A DNA stretch of 52,300 nt from positions 1 through 52,300 of the IMG/VR virus record IMGVR_UViG_3300014913_000017; one strand, written 5' to 3'. This DNA is from a virus. The notes below the pieces were generated by a model. It did no database searches and was not told where the DNA came from. It was given only the letters and a program-made list of their open reading frames with translations. A program made the position numbers and the translations under genes. Positions 2,336 through 44,905 of the stretch are shown in pieces (position 1 is the first letter of the stretch; the number at the start of each line of letters is the position of its first letter).

Positions 2336-2389
2336 GCGGCCACCGTTGCATGGTCACACCTGGCGGTGGCCCGCCAGGAGGCCAAGGCA

Positions 2390-5300
2390 ATGCCCGCTGA
2401 TCACGCACCCACCCACGGAATTTTCCTCCCATCCAAGCTGATCAAGATCCTGGCGGAAGGCCGGGGCCTGGTCCTGTTGTCCCCGGAGGATCGGATGTAC
2501 GATCCGGCCACCACGTACCTGGCGGTGGACACTGGATCGGTGGTGGGCACCATCACCCCAGGCGTGGGAACGTCCATGCCTGTGGCGGAAGCTGTGAAGC
2601 AATCCCACGGGTACAAGCCCGGGGGCATGGCCAAGCGTTGGCCGGACGCGGAATCACTCACGGTGTGGCCCGTCGAGTTTTCCCCGCTGGTGGACCGTGT
2701 GCCCCTGGCCGTCCTGGGGTCCATGGAATACGGGGAGGTGTTCAAGGTGAGCCTGGACGCCCCCGTGGTGACCATGGGCGCGGAGGCCGTCGAGGCGGTC
2801 CGGGAGGCCAAGCGTGGGGCCCGCGCCTGGGCCCAGGGCGTGGCCGGATTCCTGGCGGACGTGGAGGGCCACGTGGGCCCCGGGACAGGTGCCCTCCTGG
2901 GCGCAATGCCCCGCGCCAGCCAGGGCCTCCAGGATGCCCTGAAATCGATCGCAGTCCAGGGGGGTACAAGGGCCCCCGTTTCCGATTTCGCGGGCATGGT
3001 GGACAAGCTGGGCCCCATGGTGGACAAGCTGGCCCAAGCCCTCCCGGAAGGTGACCTCCGGGACGCCATGGAAGCCCGGGCCAGCTACCTGGACGCCCTG
3101 GCCGTGGCTGTCCGGTATGCCAAGGCCAGCCTCCCCGCGTTGAAGCTGCCGGATCCGCTGTGGGTGGTGAAGCGGTTGGGCGCGGACAAGGAGGCCGGGT
3201 TCCTGAGTGAACAGCCCCAGGCCAGCCGTGTGGACCGTGACCAGTACCTGGTCAATGATGTGCTGGCCAAGGAGGGCACCGTGTACGGGCGTCCATTCGC
3301 ATGGGCGATCGTTCGCACGGGTGAGCCCCTCCAGGTGGACCACGCGGACCTGGACCGCCTCCCCGTGGACAAGTCCACGCGGGCAGAGTGGCGGGACCGC
3401 ACGGGGAACAACGCCTGGCACATCCCGATCAAGCTGGTGCGGGAACTGGATCCCCCGGTGGAACTGCGGGACGCACCTCCCGGGGATCGGTTTGCTTCCG
3501 GGCTGGACCTGGTGGCGGAAGCTGTCACCAAGGTGGACCTCCCCGATCCCACGGACCTCCGCACGTTGAAGCCCGCCGCCCTCCAGGCTGTACATGATGA
3601 ACTGGTGGCGGAATGGGAGGCGCGGTACCAGGGATCCGATCAGGTGCAAGGCCGGGAGGATCTGGTCAACGCGATCCTGTTCACTCGCCAGGAATACGAT
3701 CGGCGCGGGATGGACGCCCCCCAGGTTCCCGGTGAACTGGACACGGAACTGGGCGCACTGATCGGGGTGAAGCAAGCCCAGGCGGTGGAGGACACCACGG
3801 GCACCAGGCCCCCGATCACGCTGGCCCAGGTGCTGGACGGAATGAAGAAATCGATCACCCTCCGCCGTGGGGTGGTCACGGTCACGGGCCCGGTGTGCGG
3901 ACAGGGTGCCACACGCAATGACGTGGACCTGGTGATCCAGGGCCCCATGGACGGCGGGCTCCGCAAGGCGTTGGAATCGAGGCTGGGCGGATCCTTCCCG
4001 GCAACGATCAGTCCCCGGCTGAGTTTCCAGCATGACCCGGAACTGATCGGACCGTTCACCGATCACGTGGAGGCATTTGACCTGGTGCTGGCCCCGCGTG
4101 ATCACCATGACGTGGTGGAACTGCGGGCGGTGGAAAAGGCGGGTGATCCCCTCCTGGATATGCCTGCGAAACGTGGACCACGGCAAGCGGTCCTCCAGTA
4201 CCACTGGCGTGGGAAAACCCTCCACGCGGACCTCCGCATGAAGGTGGGATCGGATTTCCTGGTGGGCTGGACCCTGATGCTACAGAAACCAGGGATCCCC
4301 CAACCGGACACGATCGCCCAGGCCAAGGAAATGGCGGGGACGTTCAACCCGGACGGCGGGAAGTACAACAAGGACATGGTGGCACCGGAGGCCGTCCAGG
4401 CCGTCCCGAAAAAGCGGCAACCCGTCGAGTGGTTGCACATGGAAGGTGAAGCGATCGAACCTGGGGAGGTGGGCGCAACCACCAACCTCCCGGGCTTCAT
4501 TGTCGAGATCCCCGGCGGTCCCGATTTCGCGGAACTGGGAATCCAGGGCCCCGCGTTCCATGAATACTTTTTGACGGGTGGATCGAAGCTGATCGGGAGG
4601 CTCATGTTCCGGCAGTTGCCCGGCCGTGATGGTGGGGATCCATTCTGGCGGGCGATCGTTTCCAAGGAACACCTCCCCTCCGTCCTGGATCGGCGGGCGG
4701 TGCGGACAAAGGCCATGCCCCCGGATGGGTACTCATGGATCCCCACGTCCCTGGAACGGGTGACGCCCAAGGAGTTCAGGTACTGGGAACACAAGGGGGA
4801 GGAGGCGCGGAAGATCCGGGACGCCCTGGTGGCTGATCGTTTCTTCACCAAGGACAACGTGAAGATCGTCAACGGGCAGTTTGCCCGCGTCGATTCCACG
4901 CGCAAGTACACGCTGTTTGTGCCGGACGGCATGGACGCGGGCGCGGTGGTGAAGCCCGCACCCAAGTGGGACTGGGTGCTGTCACACCAGGTGTGGAAAG
5001 GCCAACAGGGAACCACGCGGGAGGTGTGGCGTTTCGGCCTGGTGAGACACACCCAGCCGATCCAGTTTGAACTGACCACGGATCCCGTGGCCACGCCTTC
5101 CGTGCCCGCGGTCATGAAACGGTTGAAGGGGAGGGCCCTGTGGGATCTGAACGGTGAAGTGGAACGGGGCCGTGAGTACGGCGGGGACGTGTTCAACGAT
5201 ACCGCCTCCACGCCTTCCCTGATCACCCAGGTGGACAAGGGCACCGCCACGATCCTGGAGGAGGCACCAGGCCGGATCCTGTTGCGCCTCCGTGGTGACA

Positions 5301-6172
5301 GTGTGCGGGGCGTGTTCGCACTCGACGCGGAGGAGGAGGGATCCTCCCAGTGGATGTTGACCAGGACGGAAGGCCAACAGCCCCAGGTGGAAAAGGAGGA
5401 ACCCGTCGAGGAGGAGGCCAAGCCGGAACCGCGCCAGATCGCGGTCAAGGTGGTGGACGGCATGGACCTGGTGGTGGGCCCAGTCAAGGATCCAACCACG
5501 TGGAGGGACGTGATCAAGGTGGGGGAGGATCACTGGGTGACAGTTGGATCCGTTGGCGCGGACACCGGGGCCAAGCCTGGTGACGTGATCGTGATCGATG
5601 CGGACGCGGTGGGATATGAACGGGACGCGGTGGGCAAGCAACGCCTCCAGTGTGGTGGATCGATCGCCACCGCTGGCGCGTCCGTTCCCTTCACCACGGA
5701 ACAGGTGCTGGACCTCCTGGAGGGCGGTGAATTCAACAAGTACGTTGACACTGTGATCGGCAACCTGTTAAAAATCGTAAAGGCCGAACAGGACGCCACG
5801 GCCGATCGTTGCTTTGTTTTCGGGGAGGTTCTAGTCCCCAACATTGGAACCACGGAAGGCGAGGACAGCCAGGGTGACACGTACACGGTGCATGATGTCG
5901 AGGAGGCGTGTTATTCGTTCATGCGTCACGGCCACCGCCACGGCCTCATGCACTCGCAATTCATTGACGGCAAGGTCACCCTCCTGGAAAACTACCTGGC
6001 ACCCATGGACATGACGTTGAAAGATCAGGACGGAGACGAACGCACCATCCCCAGGGGAACCTGGCTGATGAAATGCGAGATCATCGATCCCGATCTGAAA
6101 CAGGCCGTGCGGTCCGGGGACCTGACAGGGTTCAGCGTGGGTGGATCTGGCGTCCGCACCCGGGTAAGGTAA
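2390..6172 (+). CDS. giant prohead protease: nucleotidyltransferase-like + LigD phosphoesterase-like modules + XkdF-type (S78_2) protease
   Basis: The start is ATG 2390 because AGGAGG lies 8 bases upstream; an in-frame GTG at 2366 has no ribosome site. The product is 1260 residues. The C-terminal ~125 residues match the XkdF-like prohead protease pattern: SQGDTYTVHDVEEACYSFM, H1188 in LMHS, YLAPMDM, GTWLMKCEI, and S1249 in GFSVGG. That domain is normally a separate protein of a few hundred residues. Residues ~495-565 resemble a nucleotidyltransferase (GPVCGQG, then D511-x-D513, then D564). Residues ~600-720 resemble the LigD 3'-phosphoesterase fold: H605, H612, D614 and R616 match its H...HxDxR signature. 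A second, degenerate copy spans ~860-1000. Residues 1-480 are unrecognised. The protease part fits capsid maturation. The other modules suggest DNA-end processing or are structural relics; this is inference. Confidence 0.8.
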   Translation: MPADHAPTHGIFLPSKLIKILAEGRGLVLLSPEDRMYDPATTYLAVDTGSVVGTITPGVGTSMPVAEAVKQSHGYKPGGMAKRWPDAESLTVWPVEFSPLVDRVPLAVLGSMEYGEVFKVSLDAPVVTMGAEAVEAVREAKRGARAWAQGVAGFLADVEGHVGPGTGALLGAMPRASQGLQDALKSIAVQGGTRAPVSDFAGMVDKLGPMVDKLAQALPEGDLRDAMEARASYLDALAVAVRYAKASLPALKLPDPLWVVKRLGADKEAGFLSEQPQASRVDRDQYLVNDVLAKEGTVYGRPFAWAIVRTGEPLQVDHADLDRLPVDKSTRAEWRDRTGNNAWHIPIKLVRELDPPVELRDAPPGDRFASGLDLVAEAVTKVDLPDPTDLRTLKPAALQAVHDELVAEWEARYQGSDQVQGREDLVNAILFTRQEYDRRGMDAPQVPGELDTELGALIGVKQAQAVEDTTGTRPPITLAQVLDGMKKSITLRRGVVTVTGPVCGQGATRNDVDLVIQGPMDGGLRKALESRLGGSFPATISPRLSFQHDPELIGPFTDHVEAFDLVLAPRDHHDVVELRAVEKAGDPLLDMPAKRGPRQAVLQYHWRGKTLHADLRMKVGSDFLVGWTLMLQKPGIPQPDTIAQAKEMAGTFNPDGGKYNKDMVAPEAVQAVPKKRQPVEWLHMEGEAIEPGEVGATTNLPGFIVEIPGGPDFAELGIQGPAFHEYFLTGGSKLIGRLMFRQLPGRDGGDPFWRAIVSKEHLPSVLDRRAVRTKAMPPDGYSWIPTSLERVTPKEFRYWEHKGEEARKIRDALVADRFFTKDNVKIVNGQFARVDSTRKYTLFVPDGMDAGAVVKPAPKWDWVLSHQVWKGQQGTTREVWRFGLVRHTQPIQFELTTDPVATPSVPAVMKRLKGRALWDLNGEVERGREYGGDVFNDTASTPSLITQVDKGTATILEEAPGRILLRLRGDSVRGVFALDAEEEGSSQWMLTRTEGQQPQVEKEEPVEEEAKPEPRQIAVKVVDGMDLVVGPVKDPTTWRDVIKVGEDHWVTVGSVGADTGAKPGDVIVIDADAVGYERDAVGKQRLQCGGSIATAGASVPFTTEQVLDLLEGGEFNKYVDTVIGNLLKIVKAEQDATADRCFVFGEVLVPNIGTTEGEDSQGDTYTVHDVEEACYSFMRHGHRHGLMHSQFIDGKVTLLENYLAPMDMTLKDQDGDERTIPRGTWLMKCEIIDPDLKQAVRSGDLTGFSVGGSGVRTRVR
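5745..5773 (+). promoter_or_regulatory. possible promoter inside the prohead protease gene
   Basis: TTGACA at 5745-5750, 17 bases, then TTAAAA at 5768-5773, in a locally AT-rich patch just before the protease domain begins. It could drive protease-scaffold-capsid expression separately. It may equally be chance at a domain junction with unusual codons (TTA, AAA, GTA). Confidence 0.25.
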
Positions 6173-6176
6173 GACC

Positions 6177-7769
6177 ATGAGCGCAACAGGCTTGAAGATC
6201 ACCAAGGGCAAGGACGGAACGTATCGCCTGACCTCCATGGACATCGGGGAGGTGAGCCTTGTTGATCGTGCCGCCAACAAACGGCGGTTCATTTTCGCCA
6301 AGCGGGAGGACACCATGAGCGGTGCAGAGTTGAAGGAAACCCAGGACGGATCCCTGGTGCTGGAAAAGGATCAGGGAACGGACACGGACACGGATCCCAC
6401 CGGGACGGATGACACGGGGGACGTGGCCAAGGGGATCGATCTGTCCGCGGCGAAAAAGGCGGAACTGGCCCCGCTGTCCCACAAGGTGGTGGAGGCCGCC
6501 TTGCACTTCCACAACCAGGTGGCGAGTGCCAAGGAGGTCAAGGAGGGTGCCGCGGTTCCCCAGTCACTGGTGGACGAGGGCAAGGCGTTGAAGGCGGCCC
6601 AGGGTGAACTGGACCGGGCCCTGTTCGGCACGGCGGAAGGTGAGGAGGCCACGGCCAGCGATACCGCGGGGGACGCGGACGTGGAGGACGGTGGTGCCGG
6701 ATCTGCCCCCCCGGCACAGCCGGACAAGGCCAAGGCCACCAAGGCGTTGACCACGGAGGAACGCAACAAGCTGCCGGACGCTGATTTCGCATTGCCCAAG
6801 GAACGGAAGTACCCGATCCCGGACATCAGCCATGCCCGCAACGCCCTGGCCCGTGTGGCCCAGTCCGGGACGGAAGCGGAACAGGCCCAGGTCCGCGCCG
6901 CGGTGGAACGCAAGTACCCGGAACTGAAAAAGGCGGACGGGGACACGGACGCCACGGCGGAAGGTGACACCCCGGACACGGACGCCACCCCGGACACGGA
7001 CGTGGACAAGGCCACCTCCACGCACCAGGCCCTCCTGGATGAAAAGGTGGCGGCCCTGGAAAAGATCCTGGGTGAAATCGTGGGCAAGGTGTCCACCATG
7101 GATCCGGAGGAACTGCGGGCCCGCATGAGCCAGGCGCGTGACATCATGTGGCACATGGAGGAGGCGGTGGACGTGGTGAGCGTGGGCAAGTGCGTGGACG
7201 CCCTGACGGACGCGGACCTGGAGGCCATGGCTTCCGGTGAACTGCCGGACACGCTGGCCAAGGTGGGGCGCAAGATGAGCGGCCGGAACCTGTCCAACTT
7301 CAACGGGGCCCTGGGCACCATCCGTGGCGAGTTGGAAAAGCTGTTCCAACTGTACCGGGCCCTCCTACCCCCGGAGCAACAAGGCAAGGCGGACGCCCTC
7401 CACAAGCGGCTGATCGAAGACATGGGCCTCCCGGAGGTCCCCGCGGACAACGCGGGCGGATCGTTCACGTGGCCGGAATCCCCGGCGGGAACGCTGCCTG
7501 ATGCTGCGGAGCCTGGCCCGGCCAAGGATGAACTGGCCCGGCTGGAAAAGCTGGCCAAGGTCAAGGAGGCGGAGGCCAAGGAACTGCGGGGCAAGCTGGC
7601 CAAGGCGGAAGCGGAAGCGGCCACGGTGCCTCCCCCGTCGAGTGGCCAGGCGGACGGCCCCCAGGCGGGCACCGTCACCAAGGGTGACAGCGGCGGTGAT
7701 GACGACTGGCCCATGGACATGAACATGAGCGAATACCGCCGGAAGGTTGCCTCCGGGGAAACAACCTGA
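6177..7769 (+). CDS. scaffold-like protein beginning with an XkdF C-terminal segment
   Basis: This acidic, helical 530-residue protein starts 4 bases after the protease stop. Residues ~20-42 (IGEVSLVDRAANKRRF) match the segment that usually ends XkdF-type proteases, so the usual protease tail is encoded here. A second ATG at 6315 has a strong GGAGG 5 bases upstream and would make a shorter form lacking that segment, as in nested protease/scaffold genes. Residues ~194-251 (NKLPDADFALPKERKYPI...HARNALARVAQ) match a short domain common in phage head genes. Long coiled-coil-like Glu/Lys/Ala stretches follow (about 285-420 and 445-480). Residues 510-515 read DWPMDM, shared with the protein at 1412. 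A scaffolding role is likely from position and composition. Confidence 0.7.
   Translation: MSATGLKITKGKDGTYRLTSMDIGEVSLVDRAANKRRFIFAKREDTMSGAELKETQDGSLVLEKDQGTDTDTDPTGTDDTGDVAKGIDLSAAKKAELAPLSHKVVEAALHFHNQVASAKEVKEGAAVPQSLVDEGKALKAAQGELDRALFGTAEGEEATASDTAGDADVEDGGAGSAPPAQPDKAKATKALTTEERNKLPDADFALPKERKYPIPDISHARNALARVAQSGTEAEQAQVRAAVERKYPELKKADGDTDATAEGDTPDTDATPDTDVDKATSTHQALLDEKVAALEKILGEIVGKVSTMDPEELRARMSQARDIMWHMEEAVDVVSVGKCVDALTDADLEAMASGELPDTLAKVGRKMSGRNLSNFNGALGTIRGELEKLFQLYRALLPPEQQGKADALHKRLIEDMGLPEVPADNAGGSFTWPESPAGTLPDAAEPGPAKDELARLEKLAKVKEAEAKELRGKLAKAEAEAATVPPPSSGQADGPQAGTVTKGDSGGDDDWPMDMNMSEYRRKVASGETT
6305..6317 (+). promoter_or_regulatory. strong internal ribosome binding site for a short scaffold form
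   Basis: GGAGG at 6305-6309, five bases, then in-frame ATG 6315. This site is better than the weak AAGG before ATG 6177. It would start a 484-residue scaffold form just after the XkdF-like tail segment. Confidence 0.5.
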
Positions 7770-7892: not shown

Positions 7893-8822
7893 ATGACAAA
7901 CGCGGAAGTGATCCGCAAGGCGGACATGGTGCTGAACGATCTCCTGACGGGAGGTGGTTTGCTGCAACCCGAACAGGCGCGGCGTTTCATGAGGCTGGCG
8001 ATCGATCGATCGGTCCTGCTGCCCATGACCTCCGTGATCCCCATGAAGCGGCCCAGCCTCCTGATCGACAAGATCAGGTTCGGGTCCAGGATCCTCCGTG
8101 CGGGCACGGAAGCCCAGGCCCTCCCCGTGGGTGAGAGGTCCAAGCCGGATCTGTCCCAGGTCCAACTGGACACCCACCTGATGCGGGCGGAGGTCCGGCT
8201 GTCCAGTGAGGTGTTGGAGGACAACATCGAACAGGCCAACTTCAAGGACACCCTGATCCAACTGATCGCGGAACGGGTGGCCCTGGACGTGGAGGATCTG
8301 CTGATCAACGGGGACACCGGATCGGCGGATCCCTTCTACGCCCAGTTCAACGGGCTCCTCCAGGCCATTTCCACGTACATCTATGACCACGGCGGCCTCC
8401 CGTACAGCAAGGTGGTCACCAAGTCCATGTTGAAGCTCATGCCCACGGAATTCCTCCAGGACCGTGCGGCCATGCGCGTGTTCTACTCACAGGACCAGGA
8501 CACGGACTACCGCGATCTGATCGCGGAGCGGGCCACCAACCTGGGTGATGACACGTTCAAGGGCAACCGCCCGATCGTCACCTACGGTGTCCCCCACGTG
8601 CCCGTGTCCAAGTTCCCGGAGACACTGGCCCCCGGCACCAGGTCCAACGCGGTGCTGGTGGATCCCAAGAACCTCCAGACCGGATGGTGGCGGCAGATCC
8701 AGATCGAAACCGCCAAGGACATCAGCGCGGGCGTCCTGATCATCGTGGTCACCCTCCGGATGGGATTCGTCCTGGCGGAGGAAACGGCGGCGGTCAAGGC
8801 GATCAACATCGACGTGGCCTAG
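7893..8822 (+). CDS. major capsid protein, HK97 fold
   Basis: This 309-residue protein starts behind GGAGG. It follows the prohead protease and scaffold-like genes and precedes a decoration-like gene, the standard capsid position. It begins with a helical N-arm (VIRKADMVLNDLLTGGGLLQPEQARRFM). HK97-fold features follow: an E-loop-like region around IRFGSRILRAGTEAQALP, the P-domain spine helix (EDNIEQANFKDTLIQLIAERVALDVEDLLINGD split by short turns), and C-terminal A-domain strands (VLVDPKNLQTGWWRQIQI). The length is typical of compact HK97-fold capsid proteins. Codon choice is strongly GC-biased, as expected of a highly expressed gene here. The fold is assigned from pattern and context, not by structural search. 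Confidence 0.85.
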   Translation: MTNAEVIRKADMVLNDLLTGGGLLQPEQARRFMRLAIDRSVLLPMTSVIPMKRPSLLIDKIRFGSRILRAGTEAQALPVGERSKPDLSQVQLDTHLMRAEVRLSSEVLEDNIEQANFKDTLIQLIAERVALDVEDLLINGDTGSADPFYAQFNGLLQAISTYIYDHGGLPYSKVVTKSMLKLMPTEFLQDRAAMRVFYSQDQDTDYRDLIAERATNLGDDTFKGNRPIVTYGVPHVPVSKFPETLAPGTRSNAVLVDPKNLQTGWWRQIQIETAKDISAGVLIIVVTLRMGFVLAEETAAVKAINIDVA

Positions 8823-8829
8823 TACCTGA

Positions 8830-8843
8830 TCCCCGCAAGGGGA
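8830..8843 (+). terminator. GCAA-loop hairpin after the major capsid gene
   Basis: TCCCC-CGCA-style hairpin: TCCCC (8830-8834) and GGGGA (8839-8843) enclose the loop GCAA, a GNRA tetraloop. It lies 8 bases after the capsid stop, with no T-run behind it. It could stabilise the capsid mRNA 3' end or attenuate transcription; it is not a classic intrinsic terminator. Confidence 0.4.
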
Positions 8844-8881
8844 ACAGGACGGGTTCCACTCTGAACTAGAGGAGGATCGAC

Positions 8882-9208
8882 ATGGCGATCAGTGCGGCAA
8901 ATGCGGGACGGATGGGGAAGCAACCCTCCGCTCCCACATTCGTGGATTTCGTGGACGTGACCTGTGACAACGTATACCCCGGCGGAGGGTGGGATCTGGA
9001 CCTCACGGACTATCTCCCCCACGGGGCAACCGTGATGGAGGTCCACGCACCTCCGCACGTGGCCACCGGGTACGTGCCCGTGTACGACAGGACCAACAGC
9101 AAGCTGGTGATCCTGGAGTCCGGCGGTGCCACCAACCCGCTGGTGGACCTCACCACGGCGGCGGCCATGGACGGGGAAGTGGTCCGGCTCACGGTCCTGT
9201 CCTACTAG
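8882..9208 (+). CDS. head decoration-like protein
   Basis: This 108-residue protein starts behind GAGGAGG. The pattern (FVDVTCDNVYPGGGWDLDL, then VMEVHAPP, GYVPVYDRTNSKLVIL, ending in EVVRLTVLSY) is the all-beta layout of small proteins that follow capsid genes in many phages, in which a strand-rich body covers the capsid surface or stabilises it. It sits 59 bases after the capsid gene, separated by the GCAA-loop hairpin. The family assignment is from pattern memory and position. A minor structural role other than capsid decoration is possible. Confidence 0.6.
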   Translation: MAISAANAGRMGKQPSAPTFVDFVDVTCDNVYPGGGWDLDLTDYLPHGATVMEVHAPPHVATGYVPVYDRTNSKLVILESGGATNPLVDLTTAAAMDGEVVRLTVLSY

Positions 9209-9230
9209 GACACCATCCGGCAATCCCGGC

Positions 9231-9268
9231 GGGGGCCTGTTGCCTCCGCCCCAGTTAAGGAGGCCCCC
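9231..9268 (+). promoter_or_regulatory. hairpin able to hide the ribosome site of the lysine-rich protein gene
   Basis: GGGGGCCT (9231-9238) is perfectly complementary to AGGCCCCC (9261-9268), which covers the end of the AAGGAGG ribosome site (9257-9263) of the ATG at 9271. An alternative pairing, CCTCC (9243-9247) with GGAGG (9259-9263), also hides it. Translation may depend on melting of the hairpin or on upstream ribosomes. Confidence 0.5.
9251..9258 (+). repeat. CCAGTTAA intergenic motif (copy 3)
   Basis: CCAGTTAA runs directly into the GGAGG ribosome site of the gene at 9271 and lies in the loop of the 9231-9268 hairpin. Confidence 0.45.
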
Positions 9269-9270
9269 TC

Positions 9271-9870
9271 ATGAGCAATCAAGAAACCAGGCACGTGCGG
9301 TTGAAGCCGCGCGATCCACGGGCAGGGTATGTCATGAAGGCATACGCTGTGAACGTCGGGCGGAAGCTGCCCGCACGTTTCGACGCGGGCAAGTGGTACG
9401 AGGTGCCCGCGGTCATGGCCAAGTACCTGGCCACCGTCCACGAGAAACCCGGCAACAAGCTGACCCCCCTGGCCTTCGACGTGTGCAAGGACAAGGTGGA
9501 GGCGCGGGAACTGATCCGCCGGGAGGAGGCGGCCAAGCGGGCGGGCAAGAAACCGGAGGACGCGGTGGACATGGCCGCGATCTTGACCACGGGTGATCTT
9601 GCCCCGGTGAAGCCCGCGGCGATCATGGACACGGACACGGACACGGACCCCGATCTGGATCTCACGGATCCGGACCTGGGGGACGTGGACACGGAGGAGG
9701 AGGAACCGGAACCACCGCCTCCGCCCGCCCGTACCCGCAAGCGGAAGCCCAAGCCCAAGCCCAAGGCCAAACCCACCAAGCGGAAGGCCAAGGCCAAGGG
9801 GAAGGCCAAGGCCAAGCCGAAATCCAAGGGCAAGAAAAAGTCCAAGGCCCAGTCCACGCGGAAGCGATAG
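9271..9870 (+). CDS. head-region protein with acidic linker and histone-like lysine-rich tail
   Basis: This 199-residue protein has three parts. The N-terminal ~85 residues are a compact domain (LKPRDPRAGYVMKAYAV, KWYEVPAVMAKYLA). An acidic linker follows (about residues 115-148, DTDTDTDPDLDLTDPD, EEEEPEP). The last ~50 residues are almost only Lys, Ala, Pro and Arg (KPKPKPKAKPTKRKAKAKG). The tail resembles histone H1 or bacterial H1-like C-termini and could bind packaged DNA or RNA. The N-terminal part resembles small proteins between capsid and connector genes. The ribosome site lies in a hairpin. The charge pattern is seen; DNA binding and a head location are inferred. Confidence 0.65.
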   Translation: MSNQETRHVRLKPRDPRAGYVMKAYAVNVGRKLPARFDAGKWYEVPAVMAKYLATVHEKPGNKLTPLAFDVCKDKVEARELIRREEAAKRAGKKPEDAVDMAAILTTGDLAPVKPAAIMDTDTDTDPDLDLTDPDLGDVDTEEEEPEPPPPPARTRKRKPKPKPKAKPTKRKAKAKGKAKAKPKSKGKKKSKAQSTRKR

Positions 9871-9879
9871 CGCAACACC

Positions 9880-10155
9880 GTGACCACGGACGATCCCCAG
9901 GCTGAATTCCACACCAGTGATCTATCCATTGCCGCGTGGTTGCGTGTGAATGGATTGGAATTGCTGGGGTGTGGATTGAAGGACGGGAGGCGTGGCCGTC
10001 ACTGGTACAAATTCGCGGACCCGGACGGGAAGGCCCAGGACATGGCCAACGGATTTGCCAATTCTCAAATGGCTGAATATGACGCCATGGTCCGCCGCCT
10101 GAAATCCCTGGTGTACGCCACCAAGCAAGTGCCTCCCCGCAGTCCGATCAGGTGA
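9880..10155 (+). CDS. DUF5659-like small protein
   Basis: This 91-residue protein starts at GTG, 9 bases after the previous stop. The pattern (FHTSDLSIAAWLRVNGLELLG, RGRHWYKFADPDG, then a C-terminal helix YDAMVRRLKSLVYA) follows the DUF5659 layout: a TSDL...AA(W/Y)L start, a strand with an aromatic-Phe pair, then a helix with basic residues. These proteins are common in phages and their function is unknown. It directly precedes the sigma-like gene, which could mean a regulatory role, but that is speculation. Confidence 0.55.
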   Translation: MTTDDPQAEFHTSDLSIAAWLRVNGLELLGCGLKDGRRGRHWYKFADPDGKAQDMANGFANSQMAEYDAMVRRLKSLVYATKQVPPRSPIR

Positions 10156-10191
10156 CGTGCAATGCACCCGTGCCCAGTGTAAGCTGGGATC

Positions 10192-10737
10192 ATGGGTGGT
10201 GGTTCATGGGGCGTTGGGGATGTTGAGGTGTTGGCCCAGCACCTGGGCAGAATCCCGGTGGATGATCTGGCGCACAGGCTGGGCCGTGAGCCCCCGGAAG
10301 TGAGGGCCAAGGCCCTGGCCCTGGTCCTGGAAAGCAAGCCCTCCACGTGCCCCCTGGGCCCTATCACGCCTGAATTAATCGAATCCCTCCGCCCCGTCAC
10401 ATGGGGTGAGTGTGAAAAAGGACCACGGCCGTGTCCGTGGGTTGGTTGTCGGTATCACCTGGTGTGGGAATCAATCCGCCGGACCATGAAGGTGACCCCC
10501 CGGAAGTTTCCCAGCTTGGACGATCGGGAGGTGGTCAACCACGTGGCCATGATGGAGGACACGTGTGCCCTGGATCTGGTCATGGCCAGGGGCCCGTACA
10601 CGTTGCATGAGATCGGGGAAATGTGGGGGATCACCCGTGAGCGTGTGCGCCAGGTGGAGGTCATGGCAAAGCGATCTTACAGGCGGGAGGCCCTCCGGTT
10701 GGGGCGTCCATGGTTGCTTGATCTGATTGGCCTGTGA
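10192..10737 (+). CDS. sigma-70 region 4-like transcription regulator
   Basis: In this 181-residue protein, residues 137-162 (TLHEIGEMWGITRERVRQVE) form a helix-turn-helix nearly identical in pattern to sigma-70 region 4.2 (the -35 recognition helix with TRERVRQ). There is no region 2, so it cannot melt a -10 element alone. A central motif, RPCPWVGCRYHL with C81 and C86 (C71 nearby), is one I associate with sigma-4-like proteins of phages and some high-GC bacteria. It may bind -35 elements or the polymerase beta-flap. It lies among virion genes, 36 bases after a DUF5659-like gene, and the GATAGT-class promoter at 10714 overlaps its 3' end. A role as late-gene regulator or anti-sigma-like factor is inferred. 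Confidence 0.75.
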   Translation: MGGGSWGVGDVEVLAQHLGRIPVDDLAHRLGREPPEVRAKALALVLESKPSTCPLGPITPELIESLRPVTWGECEKGPRPCPWVGCRYHLVWESIRRTMKVTPRKFPSLDDREVVNHVAMMEDTCALDLVMARGPYTLHEIGEMWGITRERVRQVEVMAKRSYRREALRLGRPWLLDLIGL

Positions 10738-10743
10738 TAGTTT
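10714..10743 (+). promoter_or_regulatory. sigma70-like promoter, GATAGT class (site 2)
   Basis: TTGCTT at 10714-10719, 16 bases, then GATAGTTT at 10736-10743. The -35 lies inside the last codons of the sigma-like gene. It would transcribe the beta-helix gene at 10773, leaving a short leader. Confidence 0.5.
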
Positions 10744-10772
10744 GATCCGCAACGCGCCACGGAGGTGATCCC

Positions 10773-12173
10773 ATGTCAAGCCCGTACCCCATCAATCACC
10801 CAGTGACCGGGGCATGGTCCAAGGTGTTGGACAAGATCGATCTGTTCCGGTACGGCCACCTGATCGCGGACGGCACGGACATGGAGGTGGCGTGGTCCGG
10901 TGCCCCAGCCCCGGCGGACATTGCATACCTGGACGCTGGAGGACGCCTCCTGTACGGCCTGGTGGGATACAAGGAACTGTGGGTGAGAGGCGCGGGCGGA
11001 ACGGGAACGGGGACGTTGGGCGGTGAGCTGATCACGGTCCCACCTGGAATGCAAGGCCCGTTGGGGATCTTCGATTCCCTGGTTTACCGTGGCCATGAGT
11101 TGATCGATTACATCGGATCGGCTGGCACCAACCTGATCCTGGTGGACGCGGGGGGCCTGGGGGATTTCACATCGATCCAGGCTGCTATCACTTCCGCCAC
11201 TGCCGGGGATACCGTGCTGGTGAACCCGGGCACGTACACGGAAAACGTGATCCAGAAACGTGGCGTTGCGATCCGTGGACGTGGGGCCATGTTCGGCCCG
11301 CGCATGGACACGGTGATCACGTCCGCCTCTGGTGATACCCTCCAGGTGCCACACCGTGATTGCTGTATCAATGGGATCAGCATCCAGTCCACCAGCCCGA
11401 ACCCGGCGGACGCGGCCCTCCGCATCATTGACGACGGGCTGGGGGTTGGCCTGGAAACGTTCATTATCAATTTTCACGCTGGATCCATGAGCGGGGCCCA
11501 GGCCCAGGCGGTCCACTGTGACGCCCTCCCTCCAAACGAAAATGCCATTTTCATCTATGCCGGGATCGACGCGGACGCCTCCGCACCGATCGCAGTCGAG
11601 ATCGACGCGGCATTTTTGGTGTGGTTCCTGGGTGGCATGGGTGGCAACGGTGCCCAGGTTGGCGTGAAGCTGAACCCGGGCGCTGGATTCATGGCGGGCG
11701 CGGAGGCTGGGATCAACGCGGACCTGGTGGCCGGGCGGGCCATTGAAATGGATGGTGGTTTTTTCCTGGGGCTCAACTGCACCATTGACGGGTTCAACGG
11801 GGTGCGAGGTCAGAACGGATCCACGATCGTGCTGTCCAACGCCAAGGCGTTTGGCGGTTTCGCGGGGACACCTCTTGATACTGACGTGACCTCCTTCACC
11901 CTGTTAGGTGCCTCCGCCCTGGAGGGGTTTGGTGCGCCAGCCTGGCAAGGGTTCAGCGTCCTGGGCCCCACGGCCAGAATGTTTGGAGGCGTGGAGGGTG
12001 CGGGCACCACGGCCGGACCGGATCAGCGTCCCACGGCCACAGGGTCCAACCCTCCGGTGGGGTTCCAATACTGGGCACTGGATCTGGCCCCAGGCGGTGG
12101 TCCCGGTGTTGGGAGCCTCCTGATGTGGAACGGGGTTGGATGGATCGACATGACAGGGGCCGTGATTCCGTAA
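10773..12173 (+). CDS. right-handed beta-helix virion protein (spike or head fiber)
   Basis: This 466-residue protein starts behind GGAGG with 7-base spacing. The N-terminal ~125 residues are a likely virion-attachment region. From about residue 130 the sequence LGDFTSIQAAITSATAGDTV, then LVNPGTYTENV and GVAIRGRG, is the classic opening of a pectate-lyase-like beta-helix. About 250 residues of short strands with GG, GA and N turns follow. The C-terminus ends in a small WNG-x-GW module (LLMWNGVGWIDM), also seen in the two small proteins downstream. Such proteins form trimeric appendages that bind or degrade surface polysaccharide. No catalytic site can be named. Its place between capsid and connector genes suggests a head or neck appendage. 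Confidence 0.7.
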   Translation: MSSPYPINHPVTGAWSKVLDKIDLFRYGHLIADGTDMEVAWSGAPAPADIAYLDAGGRLLYGLVGYKELWVRGAGGTGTGTLGGELITVPPGMQGPLGIFDSLVYRGHELIDYIGSAGTNLILVDAGGLGDFTSIQAAITSATAGDTVLVNPGTYTENVIQKRGVAIRGRGAMFGPRMDTVITSASGDTLQVPHRDCCINGISIQSTSPNPADAALRIIDDGLGVGLETFIINFHAGSMSGAQAQAVHCDALPPNENAIFIYAGIDADASAPIAVEIDAAFLVWFLGGMGGNGAQVGVKLNPGAGFMAGAEAGINADLVAGRAIEMDGGFFLGLNCTIDGFNGVRGQNGSTIVLSNAKAFGGFAGTPLDTDVTSFTLLGASALEGFGAPAWQGFSVLGPTARMFGGVEGAGTTAGPDQRPTATGSNPPVGFQYWALDLAPGGGPGVGSLLMWNGVGWIDMTGAVIP

Positions 12174-12186
12174 GGAGGAGGATCTC

Positions 12187-12384
12187 ATGTTCAACAACGT
12201 GCCAAACGTGAAGCGGTTGATCAGGGAACACCACCAGCCGACAAGCTACACCAGCAAGTCCAAGTTCCCGAAAACGCCCACCGCCACACTGGTGGTTCAT
12301 TGCCAGGCGGACGATCGCCTGTACGTGGGCAACGGCAAGAAATGGATCCCGTTGAACACGGGGCCGGATGCACCTGGCAAGTGA
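12187..12384 (+). CDS. small protein with LYVGNGKKW module
   Basis: This 65-residue protein starts behind AAGGAGG. A basic N-terminal half (NVKRLIREHHQPTSY) precedes RLYVGNGKKWIPLN. The same LYV-x-x-GK-x-W-x-P module ends the next protein, and a related WNG-x-GW ends the beta-helix protein before it. Short sequences of this type are common at the ends of phage fiber and virion proteins. It is probably a small surface or fiber-associated subunit. I recognise no named family. Confidence 0.5.
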   Translation: MFNNVPNVKRLIREHHQPTSYTSKSKFPKTPTATLVVHCQADDRLYVGNGKKWIPLNTGPDAPGK

Positions 12385-12429
12385 TCCCCACCAGGCCAGG
12401 ATTGAAGTAAAGCAAACAGGAGGCGATCG

Positions 12430-12648
12430 ATGTTGAACCAGGATCCCCGTCAAGGGATGATCGAGGCCGTGGAGGCTGAACTGCGGAAGCGGTTGAAGGC
12501 GGACAAGGTGGCGGACGTGGACATGATCAAGGATCTGCCGGACCCCAAGGCCAAGGGCGTGAAGCCTTGCAAGGAGGACGGCAAGCTGTACGTTTCGGAC
12601 GGCAAGCGGTGGAAGCCGATCCAGATCGATCCGGGGGTGCCCCAATGA
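12430..12648 (+). CDS. small protein with LYVSDGKRW module, paralogue of its neighbour
   Basis: This 72-residue protein starts behind AGGAGG. An N-terminal helix rich in Lys and Glu (IEAVEAELRKRLKADK) is followed by KLYVSDGKRWKPIQ, the same module as in the protein at 12187, with different N-terminal halves. Its stop overlaps the start of the next beta-helix gene (ATGA), so it is translationally coupled to it. It is probably a virion-associated accessory of that appendage; the function is unknown. Confidence 0.5.
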   Translation: MLNQDPRQGMIEAVEAELRKRLKADKVADVDMIKDLPDPKAKGVKPCKEDGKLYVSDGKRWKPIQIDPGVPQ

Positions 12649-14318
12649 GTGCGCCCTTTGTAGCTGATCGGATCCAGCTTGGCGATCGGATCGCCATGGC
12701 TTCCGGGATCCCCAAGCTGTACGTGGACGGGGACACCGGGAATGATTCAAACGACGGCACCTCCTGGGCGGAGGCCAAGCTCACCATGGAGGCCGCCTTC
12801 GACCTGGTACCAGGGACCGGGTGGTGTGATCTGTACGTGAAGGGATACGGGGCCAGCAAGCTGGAGCCCGCCCGCACATACTGGCCGTTCGGTGGATACC
12901 GTGGACACCTCCGGATCATCGGGTGTGATGACTGGGAGGTGGTGGCCACGGGACAGATCACTGGGTACAGCCTCATGAGCGGGAGACAATCCTGGGATGA
13001 ATACACGATCGCCTGGGATGGTGGATACGTTGCGGACGACGTGACGGACCGCAAGCTGTGGGTGGAATTCGAGGATGACACCGCGGCCACGTTCCTCCGC
13101 AAGATCATGGCCCTGAACACGGCCACCGGGAATTACGAAATACCCAACCAGTGGGGGTTCCCCGCGATCACCACGCCCCTCCCGATCCGCCTGGTGCGTC
13201 CGCGCACACAGATCCACCCCACCTCATACATGAGGGTGGGATCATCTAGTGCCCCGGAACTGGGATCGGTTGCCATGGCCTCCGTGGAATTCAAGCCCTC
13301 CGGGATGAATGGGGCCTGGGGTGTTGGGACTGCCGCGGTATACGTGGACGCCACCTCCCATGGCCGTGCGTTTGGCTTGCAACAGGACGGTGTGTTGGGT
13401 GGGATGAATATCACCGCCGTGGGCATGGGCACCGGGTACGAGTACCTGTATTTTCAAGCCTCCTCCCTGGTGGACACGCCCATGGAGGGGAAGCTGTCCA
13501 ACTATTACCTCCCGGGTTCCCACCTGGAAATGGACGGGACCGGGAGTGCCCTGTGTACCTTGACCGGGGGCCCGCTTGGAAATCGGGTTTTCTGGTCCAC
13601 GTATGACGGCGGACGTTTCGAGGTGTGGAACGGCACCCAGGTGATCCCCTTCCACTTCCGCGGTGGTGGTGACCTGGCCCACTGGAACGTGTACACGCGG
13701 TCCACCTCCTCACTGGCGTATTGCTTGGTGGACGGTGATCTGGTGGTGGGTGAGGATTCGTTCATGCTGGTGGGGAACACGATCGAGGCTGGCGGGATCG
13801 ATGTCCGCGGCGGTGAACTGCGATCGAGCGGTGGCGGGATCGACACTGTGATCTTGTCGAGGTCCGCACCCACGGATCAGGTGTGCGTGAAGGCGGAACG
13901 CGGATCCCGGATCAACTTCATTCGGTTTGAAGGTGGCTGGGATCTGGCGACACCAGGCATACCGCTGCCCGCGGTTGAACTGGCCGGGGACGTGGCGGAA
14001 CTGGACATTGACCTGGACAACATGGATCGCGGTGATGGCCCGGTCACGTTGGTGAAGGACGGGGCCCGCGCCCAACTGTTGGAGGTCAAGGGTGACAACA
14101 CCAACGCGGGAGGCGGTGGCACTTGTGTGGGCCTCCAGATCGAGGATCCCGCATTCGTGGAGGTGGACGTTTCGGAAGCCACGGCCACTGGCGCGGACGG
14201 GGACGTGAAGGTGGGATCGCTTGCTGCCCAGGTGTGGCCCGGTGCAGGGAACCGCGTCAATGATGTGAGCAACCCACCCGCCAACACGGACCACCTGGCG
14301 CAACTGAAAACGATCTAA
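12645..14318 (+). CDS. second right-handed beta-helix virion protein
   Basis: This 557-residue protein starts at the ATG that overlaps the previous TGA. A longer in-frame extension to 12567 lies wholly inside the previous gene and is rejected. After a short N-terminus, LYVDGDTGNDSNDGTSW and AKLTMEAAFDLV match the start of DUF1565-like parallel beta-helices (YVdp-GnDsnDGtsw). A long run of short strands with Gly and Asn turns follows to about residue 480, then a compact C-terminal part. It probably forms a trimeric spike. It is unlike the first beta-helix protein at the sequence level but shares its architecture. The substrate is unknown. Confidence 0.65.
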   Translation: MSAPFVADRIQLGDRIAMASGIPKLYVDGDTGNDSNDGTSWAEAKLTMEAAFDLVPGTGWCDLYVKGYGASKLEPARTYWPFGGYRGHLRIIGCDDWEVVATGQITGYSLMSGRQSWDEYTIAWDGGYVADDVTDRKLWVEFEDDTAATFLRKIMALNTATGNYEIPNQWGFPAITTPLPIRLVRPRTQIHPTSYMRVGSSSAPELGSVAMASVEFKPSGMNGAWGVGTAAVYVDATSHGRAFGLQQDGVLGGMNITAVGMGTGYEYLYFQASSLVDTPMEGKLSNYYLPGSHLEMDGTGSALCTLTGGPLGNRVFWSTYDGGRFEVWNGTQVIPFHFRGGGDLAHWNVYTRSTSSLAYCLVDGDLVVGEDSFMLVGNTIEAGGIDVRGGELRSSGGGIDTVILSRSAPTDQVCVKAERGSRINFIRFEGGWDLATPGIPLPAVELAGDVAELDIDLDNMDRGDGPVTLVKDGARAQLLEVKGDNTNAGGGGTCVGLQIEDPAFVEVDVSEATATGADGDVKVGSLAAQVWPGAGNRVNDVSNPPANTDHLAQLKTI

Positions 14319-29203: not shown

Positions 29204-29592
29204 GCGTGAACGGCACCAAGGTTCCCATGGAACGCACGGCCAACGGCTGGCGCACCCTGGAGGGGGACACGTTCCTGGAAAACGTGATCCAGTTTTTCAT
29301 GCTGGTGAGGTCCAGCGAAAACGGGACCACGGGGGAATGTCCCTGGGATAAGAAGTACGGGACGCCATGGGACATGATGCGGCACCGCAATATCAAGGCG
29401 GGCATGGTGGAGCGGTACGTGTCCACCACGCTGTCCAGGTTCAAGGCGTATGCCGGGGACCACTTGCGGTTCACGGTGGTGGAAAGGTTCGCGCCCGCGG
29501 CCACCAACACCGTGTGGCTCCGCTGGTGGTGGCGGAATTTGCAGACTGGCAAAGTGACGGAGGAGGCAACCAGTGTCGAGTTTGCCGAATGA
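29200..29592 (+). CDS. gp25-like baseplate wedge protein
   Basis: This 130-residue protein is coupled by ATGA. The central part (GDTFLENVIQFFMLVRSSEN, then CPWDKKYGTPWDMMRHRNI) fits the gp25/gpW pattern of a helix (xxxIxxfLxTxxGxxxxxxxYG) with the -GERPMRPDYGTPL segment replaced by a related sequence. A final strand VYLRWWWRNL-like stretch follows. T4 gp25 joins the wedge to the sheath. The fit is weaker than for other baseplate genes, and position supports it. Confidence 0.5.
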   Translation: MSVNGTKVPMERTANGWRTLEGDTFLENVIQFFMLVRSSENGTTGECPWDKKYGTPWDMMRHRNIKAGMVERYVSTTLSRFKAYAGDHLRFTVVERFAPAATNTVWLRWWWRNLQTGKVTEEATSVEFAE

Positions 29593-31114
29593 TTTTGATA
29601 TCCTGAGATCCTTCGATTATGTCGATCGGGATCTGGACACGATATACCTCCGCCTCCTGGACCTGGTGACCTCCAACTGGCCCACCTGGGGACGCATCAA
29701 AGCAAGCTGGGACAATTACCTGTTGGGGCTCATGGCTCACAACAGTGACGTGGTTCACTTCTACCGGGACAACCGCCTCCGGGAATCATTCCTGGCCACC
29801 GCCAAGCTCCGTGAGTCCGTGATCAACCTGGGTGCGTGGGTGGACTATGAATTGTTCGGGCCACAGCCAGCCACGGTGGATCTGGAATTCTCGATCCCGC
29901 TGATCGCTGCGGCGGACGTGACGATCCCGGCGGGGACGGTATCGAAAACCACGGGGCGGTTGCGCCTGGATTTCCAGTTGCAAGCGGACGTGGTGATCGC
30001 GGCCGGGTTGCTCACGGCCACGGGCACCGCGGAAAACTCGACGGCCCGCACGGAAACGCGGGTGAGTGATGGGACGGCGGATCAGCGGTTCCTCCTCACA
30101 TACAAAAATTACATTGACGGATCCATGGGGATCACCGCTGCAAATGGGGCGTACACGGAGGTGGACACGTTCCTGTCAAGTGGCCCCACGGATCGACACT
30201 ACACACTGACCACGGACACACAGGGCCGTCCGATCGTCCAGTTCGGGGACGGCTCACTGGGTGAGGTTCCACAGGGCACGATCACCAGCGGGTATGACAC
30301 GGGCGGAGGGATCATTGGCCAGGTGGAAGCTGGCACCGTGACCTCCCTCCAGGGATCGTTCACGGACGGCCTGGGCAACCCGGTGGACGTGAGCGTTACC
30401 AACCCGGCGGAGGCGATCGGCGGTAGTGACATGGAATCGATCGCCCATGCGAAAAAGGCGATCCCCGCCAGCCTGGGCAACGTCCGCACCACAGTGAGTT
30501 GGGAGGATTTCAAAAACAACGCGGAACTGGTGCCGGGTGTGGCACGTGCCGTGATCATGACCGCGGATCAGGACGCATCGATCCCGGAAAACACGGGGCG
30601 GTTGTACATCGCCGCGGAGGGCACCCAGTACGCCAGCGGGTACACGCCCCCGGCGGAGCCCACATCGGGCCTGGTGGCGGACGTGCAAACCATGATCGAG
30701 ATCACCAGGCCCCACACGATCACGTTCACACCCACGTACTTGCCCGTGGTGTTCCTGGACATTGACCACCTGGCCACGGTGTATTTCGAGGAGGGCTTTG
30801 ATCCCACGGCCGTGGTGGCCACCATGGAAACCAACCTGGAAAACTGGTACGCGTCCCTGGATGACACGGGGGCACAACAGGACAATGCCCGATTCGGATT
30901 CGAGTACACGGACGCGGACGGATCCGCCACCGGGGAATTGCCCTGGTCCGATGTGTTCAACGTGCTGCGGGACACGGAAGGGGTGCGGAAGATCGATCCG
31001 TCCGGTGGGCTGTACCTGAACGGCCTTTCCGCTGGTGTGCAACTGGGAACGGTCCAGTACCCGCGCCTCCGATCCCTGACGGTGATCAATGGTGACACGG
31101 GGGCCACAGTCTAG
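29573..31114 (+). CDS. baseplate J-like protein (T4 gp6 type)
   Basis: This 513-residue protein starts at GTG overlapping the previous gene by 20 bases. The pattern is the J-like one: helical N-terminus (DYVDRDLDTIYLRLLDLV, NYLLGLMAHNSDVVHFYRDN, AKLRESVINLGAW), a beta middle (VDLEFSIPLIAAADVTIPAG) with IVQFGDGSLGEVPQG, and the conserved block GGSDMESIAHAKKAIPASL followed by VRTTVSWEDFKNNAELVPGV. The C-terminus is beta (HTITFTPTYLPVVFLDIDH). Six or twelve copies form the baseplate wedge ring. It overlaps the next GTG by one base. Confidence 0.85.
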   Translation: MSSLPNDFDILRSFDYVDRDLDTIYLRLLDLVTSNWPTWGRIKASWDNYLLGLMAHNSDVVHFYRDNRLRESFLATAKLRESVINLGAWVDYELFGPQPATVDLEFSIPLIAAADVTIPAGTVSKTTGRLRLDFQLQADVVIAAGLLTATGTAENSTARTETRVSDGTADQRFLLTYKNYIDGSMGITAANGAYTEVDTFLSSGPTDRHYTLTTDTQGRPIVQFGDGSLGEVPQGTITSGYDTGGGIIGQVEAGTVTSLQGSFTDGLGNPVDVSVTNPAEAIGGSDMESIAHAKKAIPASLGNVRTTVSWEDFKNNAELVPGVARAVIMTADQDASIPENTGRLYIAAEGTQYASGYTPPAEPTSGLVADVQTMIEITRPHTITFTPTYLPVVFLDIDHLATVYFEEGFDPTAVVATMETNLENWYASLDDTGAQQDNARFGFEYTDADGSATGELPWSDVFNVLRDTEGVRKIDPSGGLYLNGLSAGVQLGTVQYPRLRSLTVINGDTGATV

Positions 31115-44024: not shown

Positions 44025-44905
44025 TGACCACCACAACAGCAACCACCATGATCGCCTTCGTGCTGGCGATCATCACTGGACACGTTGACCCGGCCACGCC
44101 TCGCACCTCCACGGTGCGCCTGGTGTACCGCCGGGACGATCGCAAGGCGGAGGCGGATCGTCGTCGCGCCGCCCGCATGGCGTACAAGGAGGCCAAGGAC
44201 AAGCTGGCCTCCGTGCGCCGCCAGGCATCCAAGGCCAGCGGGGAGGACCGTGAGGCCCTCCAGCGGAAGGCCGATCGCATGGAGCCCAAGGTGGCGGACC
44301 TCCGCGCCAGGTGGAAGGAACTGGTGGCGCGGGACAAGGCCAGCCGGGTGCCCGCCAAGGATCGCAAGCGCGGGCCGTGTGCCGGTGCGGTTCCCACCCC
44401 GGAGGGATTCGAGATCGTCCTCCGCCCGCGGGATTTCTATCACCAGACCATTGACCCGAACTGGACCCCCCCGCCGTCACAGCGCACGGCCGTGGGCAAG
44501 TACGTGTTTCCCACGTTCCATGAGGAGGCCCCAGCCCGCGTGGAGGCTTTCATCCGGATCCGCGTTCCCGGCAACGGGGTGAGCGATCAGGAACTGGCCA
44601 CCATGGTGGGAGACTACTTCGATCAGGAGGATTCCAGGGTGTACTGGGGCCGGGTGCGCGTGCTGTTGATCGAGCGGGACACCAGGCCGTACAAGCGGGA
44701 TCAGGCCACGGTGAAGATCAGCACGGACCACAGGAGGATCCGTGGGATGATCCATCCGTCCGATCAGGTGTACAGGGGGCCGTACAAGGGAGGAAATGGC
44801 GGGGGCGGGGCCCCAGCGGCCAACCAGGGCTCCCGCGCCGCCGCACGAGCAACAACCGATCTGAATGTATCCCAGGACGTGGATCACGTCAACGGAGGTG
44901 AGTGA
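44024..44905 (+). CDS. hypothetical protein with basic coiled coil (cluster 2)
   Basis: This 293-residue protein starts at ATG 44024 on TGATG; upstream in-frame codons are out of place. Residues ~45-115 form a charged coiled coil (DDRKAEADRRRAARMAYKEA, KDKLASVRRQASKASGEDRE). A mixed domain follows (FEIVLRPRDFYHQTIDPNW, VEAFIRIRVPGNGVSDQELA, GRVRVLLIERDTRPYKRDQA). The C-terminal ~45 residues are Gly/Ala-rich. The final region could be a small nuclease-like fold, but no motif is certain. It precedes the SNF2 helicase with a one-base overlap, so a joint role in DNA metabolism is possible. Confidence 0.5.
   Translation: MTTTTATTMIAFVLAIITGHVDPATPRTSTVRLVYRRDDRKAEADRRRAARMAYKEAKDKLASVRRQASKASGEDREALQRKADRMEPKVADLRARWKELVARDKASRVPAKDRKRGPCAGAVPTPEGFEIVLRPRDFYHQTIDPNWTPPPSQRTAVGKYVFPTFHEEAPARVEAFIRIRVPGNGVSDQELATMVGDYFDQEDSRVYWGRVRVLLIERDTRPYKRDQATVKISTDHRRIRGMIHPSDQVYRGPYKGGNGGGGAPAANQGSRAAARATTDLNVSQDVDHVNGGE

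Follow-up and report, generated by a model that had tools for sequence, protein, structure and literature searches.

A phage head-maturation protease fused to nucleotidyltransferase-like and tandem LigD-like phosphoesterase domains in uncultured viruses

In the virus sequence examined here, a head-maturation protease of the XkdF family occurs as the last part of a 1260-residue protein, behind a nucleotidyltransferase-like (NTase) domain and two tandem domains related to the 3'-phosphoesterase (PE) of the ligase LigD. This protein is encoded at positions 2390-6172, on the forward strand like all features given below, of a window that comprises the whole stretch of DNA analysed (52,300 bases, 62.6% G+C; IMG/VR virus record IMGVR_UViG_3300014913_000017, positions 1 to 52,300). 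From its N- to its C-terminus, it consists of an N-terminal region, the NTase, the first and second PE (PE1 and PE2), a remnant of a ligase OB-fold, and the XkdF protease. We lean towards viewing it as a polyvalent head protein, in which the maturation protease would load N-terminal DNA-end enzymes into the head, where they would act on DNA ends or nicks. Such a fusion had been noticed in an original prediction made from the DNA letters; the observation is confirmed by our analyses, and its interpretation is supported in substance.

The reading frame is uninterrupted from 2366 to 6172 and yields 1268 residues from a GTG start at 2366 or 1260 residues from the ATG at 2390, from which residues are numbered here. 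A Pfam scan of the protein returned a single family, XkdF (PF14550), over the last ~120 residues (E=6e-18; 65.5 bits for a cut-off of 24). PHROGs were concordant, a structure search of BFVD confirmed this part by matches to phage XkdF proteins, and the protease is where it had first been placed, at the C-terminal end. The XkdF/Peptidase_S78_2 domain (5798-6169; residues 1137-1260) contains H1188 and S1249, which belong to conserved motifs and are assumed to be catalytic. A frameshift, a chimera or another assembly accident was considered as the origin of the fusion and rejected, because homologues having the same architecture are intact in other samples: the proteins of L002 and L003 have 1280 residues, an identical architecture and 74% identity to the window protein over its full length, and that of L004 matches throughout except at its cut 5' end. 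Since the fused XkdF was the sole XkdF in the window record and in each of the 12 fusion-bearing records tested, it is probably the working maturation protease of the phage and not a spare copy.

Direct comparison of the window protein with the PDB by phmmer gave no match, the signal for the upstream domains being obtained only with family profiles and structure. The family was collected by scanning viral contigs and genomes with profiles, and comprises about 27 distinct proteins of 293 to 2099 residues. When PE profiles built from relatives were run against all PDB chains, PE2 (residues 862-994; 4973-5371) matched the archaeal LigD PE structures 3p4h (6.2e-6) and 3p43 (9e-6), and PE1 (residues 585-771; 4142-4702) had two matches only, both to LigD PE (0.046 and 1.8). 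In an AlphaFold model of residues 474-1260, the PE region had pLDDT values mostly between 85 and 93. When Foldseek compared this model with 350,542 PDB chains, seven structures matched at E<=1e-3, every one a LigD PE, with a probability of 1.00 and a TM-score of up to 0.79 on the target. Homology also links PE1 to PE2 (hhalign, E=3.4e-9). Judged from profiles and model, the two regions are tandem LigD PE domains, which upholds the LigD-like assignment of PE1 in the original prediction and identifies residues 860-1010, singled out there for checking, as a second PE repeat of the same fold.

In the LigD PE of P. aeruginosa, His42, His48 and Asp50 bind the metal, whereas Arg52, His84 and Tyr88 contact the phosphate, His84 and Tyr88 being essential (PMC8656161). 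The equivalents of His48 and Asp50 are kept in 27/27 PE sequences of the family, and those of His42 and Arg52 in 26/27. In the window, these are H605, H612, D614 and R616, within the PE1 motif HWRGKTLHADLR (4202-4237; residues 605-616; H605-x6-H612-x-D614-x-R616). The metal ligands of PE2 are lost in the window and retained in L017. The family has gained a conserved His-Glu-Tyr (H724-E-Y in the window), a candidate replacement in what appears to be a rebuilt phosphate pocket. Matches to Pfam LigD_N below the cut-off are present in relatives of the window protein, but no member reached that cut-off (31.1 bits), the best being L025 with 29.6 bits, and the window protein had no match; the family is therefore best regarded, on present alignments, as a distinct branch of the superfamily with a rebuilt phosphate pocket and not as canonical LigD PE. 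No further viral PE protein was identifiable by the BFVD structure search.

Upstream of PE1, residues 474-584 (3809-4141) would form a minimal Pol-beta-type NTase domain. The columns of Gly500, Asp511, Asp513 and Asp564 are invariant in 18/18 aligned sequences; like the PE ligands, these residues stand exactly where they had been described, and their conservation goes beyond chance. An NTase profile matched exclusively viral DNA polymerase X in the PDB (E=0.13), the best Foldseek matches of the modelled domain (pLDDT 85) were MNT nucleotidyltransferases (E=0.07), and Pfam Polbeta was detected in L055 at 0.077. Three weak lines agree in pointing to the Pol-beta superfamily, so that the NTase part of the original prediction stands as a superfamily assignment, with weaker support than the PE part. 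These matches bear on a different function, that of a host-take-over or counter-defence effector whose NTase would modify, in an MNT- or AMPylation-like manner, either a signalling nucleotide or a protein of the host, whose PE would act on signalling nucleotides or the ends of RNA, and whose ligase would repair damage by defence nucleases. MNT antitoxins, the nearest NTase folds, transfer AMP to proteins; Pol-beta NTases with a proposed role in protein modification are found in polyvalent proteins (PMC5512222); and the phosphate pocket is changed in this PE subfamily. However, the NTase always occurs together with PE and frequently with a DNA ligase as well, and its profile points to DNA polymerase X; we consider an effector of this kind quite unlikely.

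Alignment with relatives adds to the earlier reading that residues ~1026-1096 (5465-5677) are what is left of an ATP-dependent DNA ligase, namely a remnant of its C-terminal (OB-fold) part. In relatives, a Pfam ligase domain sits immediately upstream of this part; the adenylation domain with its motif I lysine is present in L010, L011, L014 and L015 and missing in the window and L002. A PF01068 search found no ligase elsewhere in the window record, which is a fragment. XkdF and an ATP-dependent ligase share one chain in nine proteins (L010, L011, L014, L015, L035, L037, L041, L048 and L051), most of these ligases having the motif I lysine plus motifs IV and V, and the fused ligase was the only ATP-dependent ligase in 5/5 records tested. 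XkdF is also joined to a D12 adenine DNA methyltransferase in six proteins (L011, L012, L015, L037, L039 and L041), and a compact NTase-PE-XkdF protein of 443 residues in L055 represents the minimal form of the fusion. Structure matches at E<=1e-3 are thus LigD PE domains only, the catalytic metal residues are conserved, and homologues contribute genuine ATP-ligase and DNA-methyltransferase domains, and not the unrelated folds or structural head domains that would have spoken against the original prediction. L010, the nearest relative of the window and L002 (support 99/97), retains the ligase, and on the PE1 tree the presence of the ligase switches nine times, at least five of them forced by well-supported branches; NTase, PE and protease thus form the durable core, whereas the ligase is gained and lost. 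Between the window and L002, dN/dS was 0.18 for XkdF, 0.20 for PE1 and 0.27 for the NTase, so purifying selection constrains PE1 and NTase almost as tightly as the protease.

Among 50,697 phage records, one known protein alone is related to the body of the fusion: AJP62006.1 of the ANMV-1 virus. Its ligase is placed between NTase and PE, as in L017, and neither of the two has a fused XkdF. With the ANMV-1 protein as the only query, a search of viral contigs recovered no relative; closer alignments succeeded. Several variants were seen. L025 (7036-10074), from an Archaeoglobales metagenome-assembled genome (MAG), has three PE-like repeats within one protein, and an intein-like insert bearing LAGLIDADG motifs (PF14528, 1.9e-8) splits its PE. 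In L056, a 1590-residue frame (7896-12665) has a PE and a uracil-DNA glycosylase domain (1e-13), to which inspection by eye adds an ART-like and a P-loop kinase-like region. Proteins of ~1670 residues in L052 (738-5744), L053 and L054 comprise an NTase, a ligase, two DNA methyltransferase-like and two PE domains, without XkdF, and a shorter relative of these occurs in a Planctomycetota MAG (L024, 1167-3896). The C-terminal ~140 residues of the L016 and L023 proteins are related to each other (1.5e-13), contain the motifs GELTSFSID and GFSVEI and do not resemble XkdF. They match the annotated protease of ANMV-1 only weakly (0.002, five-sequence set) and may represent another prohead-protease family on the same cargo.

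XkdF genes labelled 'DNA methyltransferase' were considered as precedent fusions and rejected, those inspected having 154-351 residues (Kassivere, 154; RHph_TM16, 210; Lactococcus 50901, 350). Short XkdF proteases (154-350 residues) with this annotation occur in PP496416, MN988459 and KX456208 (L026, L029 and L027, respectively). Because at least two such proteins are too short for both domains, the name looks propagated from the profile phrog_1530, which ends in XkdF. The 'RNA ligase' profile phrog_14859 likewise has an XkdF-like end part. A 700-residue 'zeta toxin domain' protein of an uncultured phage (BFVD A0A6J5PIT0) gave a structural match, probably to an XkdF part, and is possibly another effector-XkdF fusion.

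The fusion gene is part of the head cluster, flanked by a MuF-like gene on one side and by the scaffold-position and major capsid genes on the other. The MuF-like minor head protein is represented by its C-terminal part, cut by the contig start (10-981; PF04233, E=1.7e-4), which is 69% identical to residues 497-822, the C-terminal 326, of the 822-residue MuF-like protein of L002, whose gene comes after the portal gene. Directly 3' of the fusion, the scaffold-position gene (6177-7769; DUF6582) has a start that matches the non-protease beginning of phrog_3017, and is followed by the major capsid protein gene (7893-8822; Phage_capsid, phrog_1623). The order is portal, MuF, fusion, scaffold position and major capsid protein in L055, and portal, MuF, fusion and scaffold-like gene in L011. 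The N-terminal ~473 residues of the fusion protein (2390-3808) had no family match. By eye only, residues about 40-110 and 300-375 resemble the N-terminus of the L002 portal protein, and a small ASCH/PUA-like domain seems recurrent in this window region, the L002 portal (3241-3900), L051 and L057. Elsewhere in the window, a baseplate J protein (29573-31114), an SNF2-type helicase (44902-47484; 2.6e-35) and a PD-(D/E)XK nuclease (48192-49418) suggest a phage of the contractile-tailed type with replication and repair genes at its right end.

Prohead proteases are assembled inside the prohead, and fusion to such a protease would therefore put the enzymes inside the capsid. As we picture it, the C-terminal XkdF protease carries the NTase and tandem PE, accompanied in most relatives by a ligase and often by D12 methyltransferases, as N-terminal cargo, which proteolysis during maturation could release. 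The enzymes set free would remain alongside the DNA and work on its ends or nicks in the head or, more likely, just after injection, by cleaning 3' ends, adding nucleotides, sealing and methylating; in the window phage, the ligase being deleted, sealing would fall to a host ligase. A set of activities for 3'-end healing, nucleotide transfer, sealing and methylation fits the repair or protection of the phage's own DNA.

As one example, the original prediction had let this cargo act at genome ends during packaging; that it enters the host together with the DNA is no less probable. In the packaging-stage alternative, the enzymes would be tethered to the protease in the prohead, repair nicks, gaps and terminase-cut ends, and then be degraded. 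The position beside portal, MuF and major capsid genes, the prohead-internal location of the protease, and the ability of PE, ligase and NTase to form a sealing set all accommodate this scheme, but the D12 methyltransferases and the uracil-DNA glycosylase of L056 better suit DNA that enters a cell and has to be protected or repaired there. Use just after injection is therefore more likely than use during packaging, and we regard a role during head assembly or packaging itself as unlikely.

Several observations weigh against a protease that carries active DNA-end enzymes. His84 is replaced by Gln or Glu in most of the 27 PE sequences and Tyr88 by Trp in 26/27 (Q677 and W681 in the window); with these essential phosphate-binding residues replaced, PE activity is not assured, and the known 3'-end healing may be lost or altered. 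The NTase fold has matches only at E about 0.1, and in the window, Pro501 takes the place of the Ser or Gly found in the G-[SG] motif of relatives. PE2 (dN/dS 0.43) and the OB remnant (0.40) evolve faster than the other domains. No Ku gene was found in the 11 records tested, the fusion is known from uncultured viral sequences alone, and the maturation protease might destroy its own cargo. The deleted ligase, Pro501, the lost PE2 metal ligands and the altered phosphate residues would equally be expected if the N-terminal regions, although derived from enzymes, were no longer catalytic in this phage and served mainly as an internal scaffold or core. Such a structural role is nevertheless hard to reconcile with a metal triad and a DxD...D motif that are invariant across very diverged members, or with the low dN/dS of NTase and PE1, and seems to us very unlikely.

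The fusion joins a set for DNA-end repair and the protease of capsid maturation within a single chain in diverse uncultured viruses. Should the cargo be packaged, as in the carrier reading that we continue to prefer, the protease would serve as a ticket into the prohead and thereby as a general targeting device, and the fusion would suggest a way for some phages to protect and circularise their genomes on entry; it would also provide compact new enzymes, namely an NTase-PE-ligase chain and a PE with a rebuilt active site. More tentatively, these proteins could denote a widespread and undescribed virus group with a capsid-carried, Ku-free end-joining kit of NTase, divergent PE, ATP ligase and often methyltransferase, which the protease would load and which would heal and seal the genome on entry; in function such a kit would correspond to LigD, although its polymerase-type fold is another.

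Compared with known systems, the PE domains share with LigD PE (PF13298; PDB 3n9b, 3p43, 3p4h and 5dmp) the fold, the H-H-D metal ligands and the Arg52 equivalent, and association with an ATP-dependent ligase is common to LigD and most relatives of the fusion. They differ from LigD PE in the Gln/Glu and Trp substitutions, the added His-Glu-Tyr, an H-x6-H spacing longer by one residue, the tandem repeat and the fusion to a capsid protease. LigD of bacterial non-homologous end joining works with Ku and has an archaeo-eukaryotic primase (AEP) polymerase, whereas Ku is absent from the fusion records tested and Pfam scans of the fusion proteins found no AEP domain. Thus, with no Ku, no AEP polymerase and a non-canonical PE, the fusion resembles LigD in composition and is not a LigD system. 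Exploitation of LigD-type end joining, suggested here for the fusion, has been described for the mycobacteriophages Omega and Corndog, whose infection makes use of host LigD recruited by the phage Ku (Pitcher et al. 2006, as cited in PMC7719229); those phages combine their own Ku with host LigD, whereas the fusion phages carry LigD-like parts and no Ku was found in them.

The closest individual counterpart is the protein of the archaeal virus ANMV-1 (KP703175), which has homologous NTase, PE1 and PE2 domains (29% identity in the PE-PE region, E=9e-33) and whose annotation as an ATP-dependent DNA ligase hides the wider family. Its gene adjoins one with a MuF-like end (by eye), comparable to the window context, but the protein carries no protease, and ANMV-1 encodes its prohead protease in a gene of its own. 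Stenotrophomonas phage DLP5, among the closest known relatives by major capsid protein, shares the protease domain and the order portal, X, protease, scaffold position and major capsid protein, yet its XkdF is a stand-alone protein of 200 residues, against 1260 with enzyme cargo in the window. The open-access literature, subscription papers being outside the search, contained no maturation protease combined with LigD and no XkdF-ligase fusion. That multidomain proteins, and enzymes joined to head proteins, are packaged has already been proposed, and is established as a proposal, for the polyvalent proteins of phages and conjugative elements; these are encoded in late clusters, are presumably packaged, and include enzymes fused to MuF or portal proteins (Iyer et al. 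2017, PMC5512222). In the same work, DdrB of phage P1 is proteolysed before packaging, and there is no mention of LigD, XkdF or an NTase-PE-ligase set. Polyvalent proteins are the nearest known kind to the fusion, with which they share a long multidomain nucleic-acid-enzyme protein among late head genes; their carriers are MuF or portal proteins, and here the carrier is the XkdF head-maturation protease.

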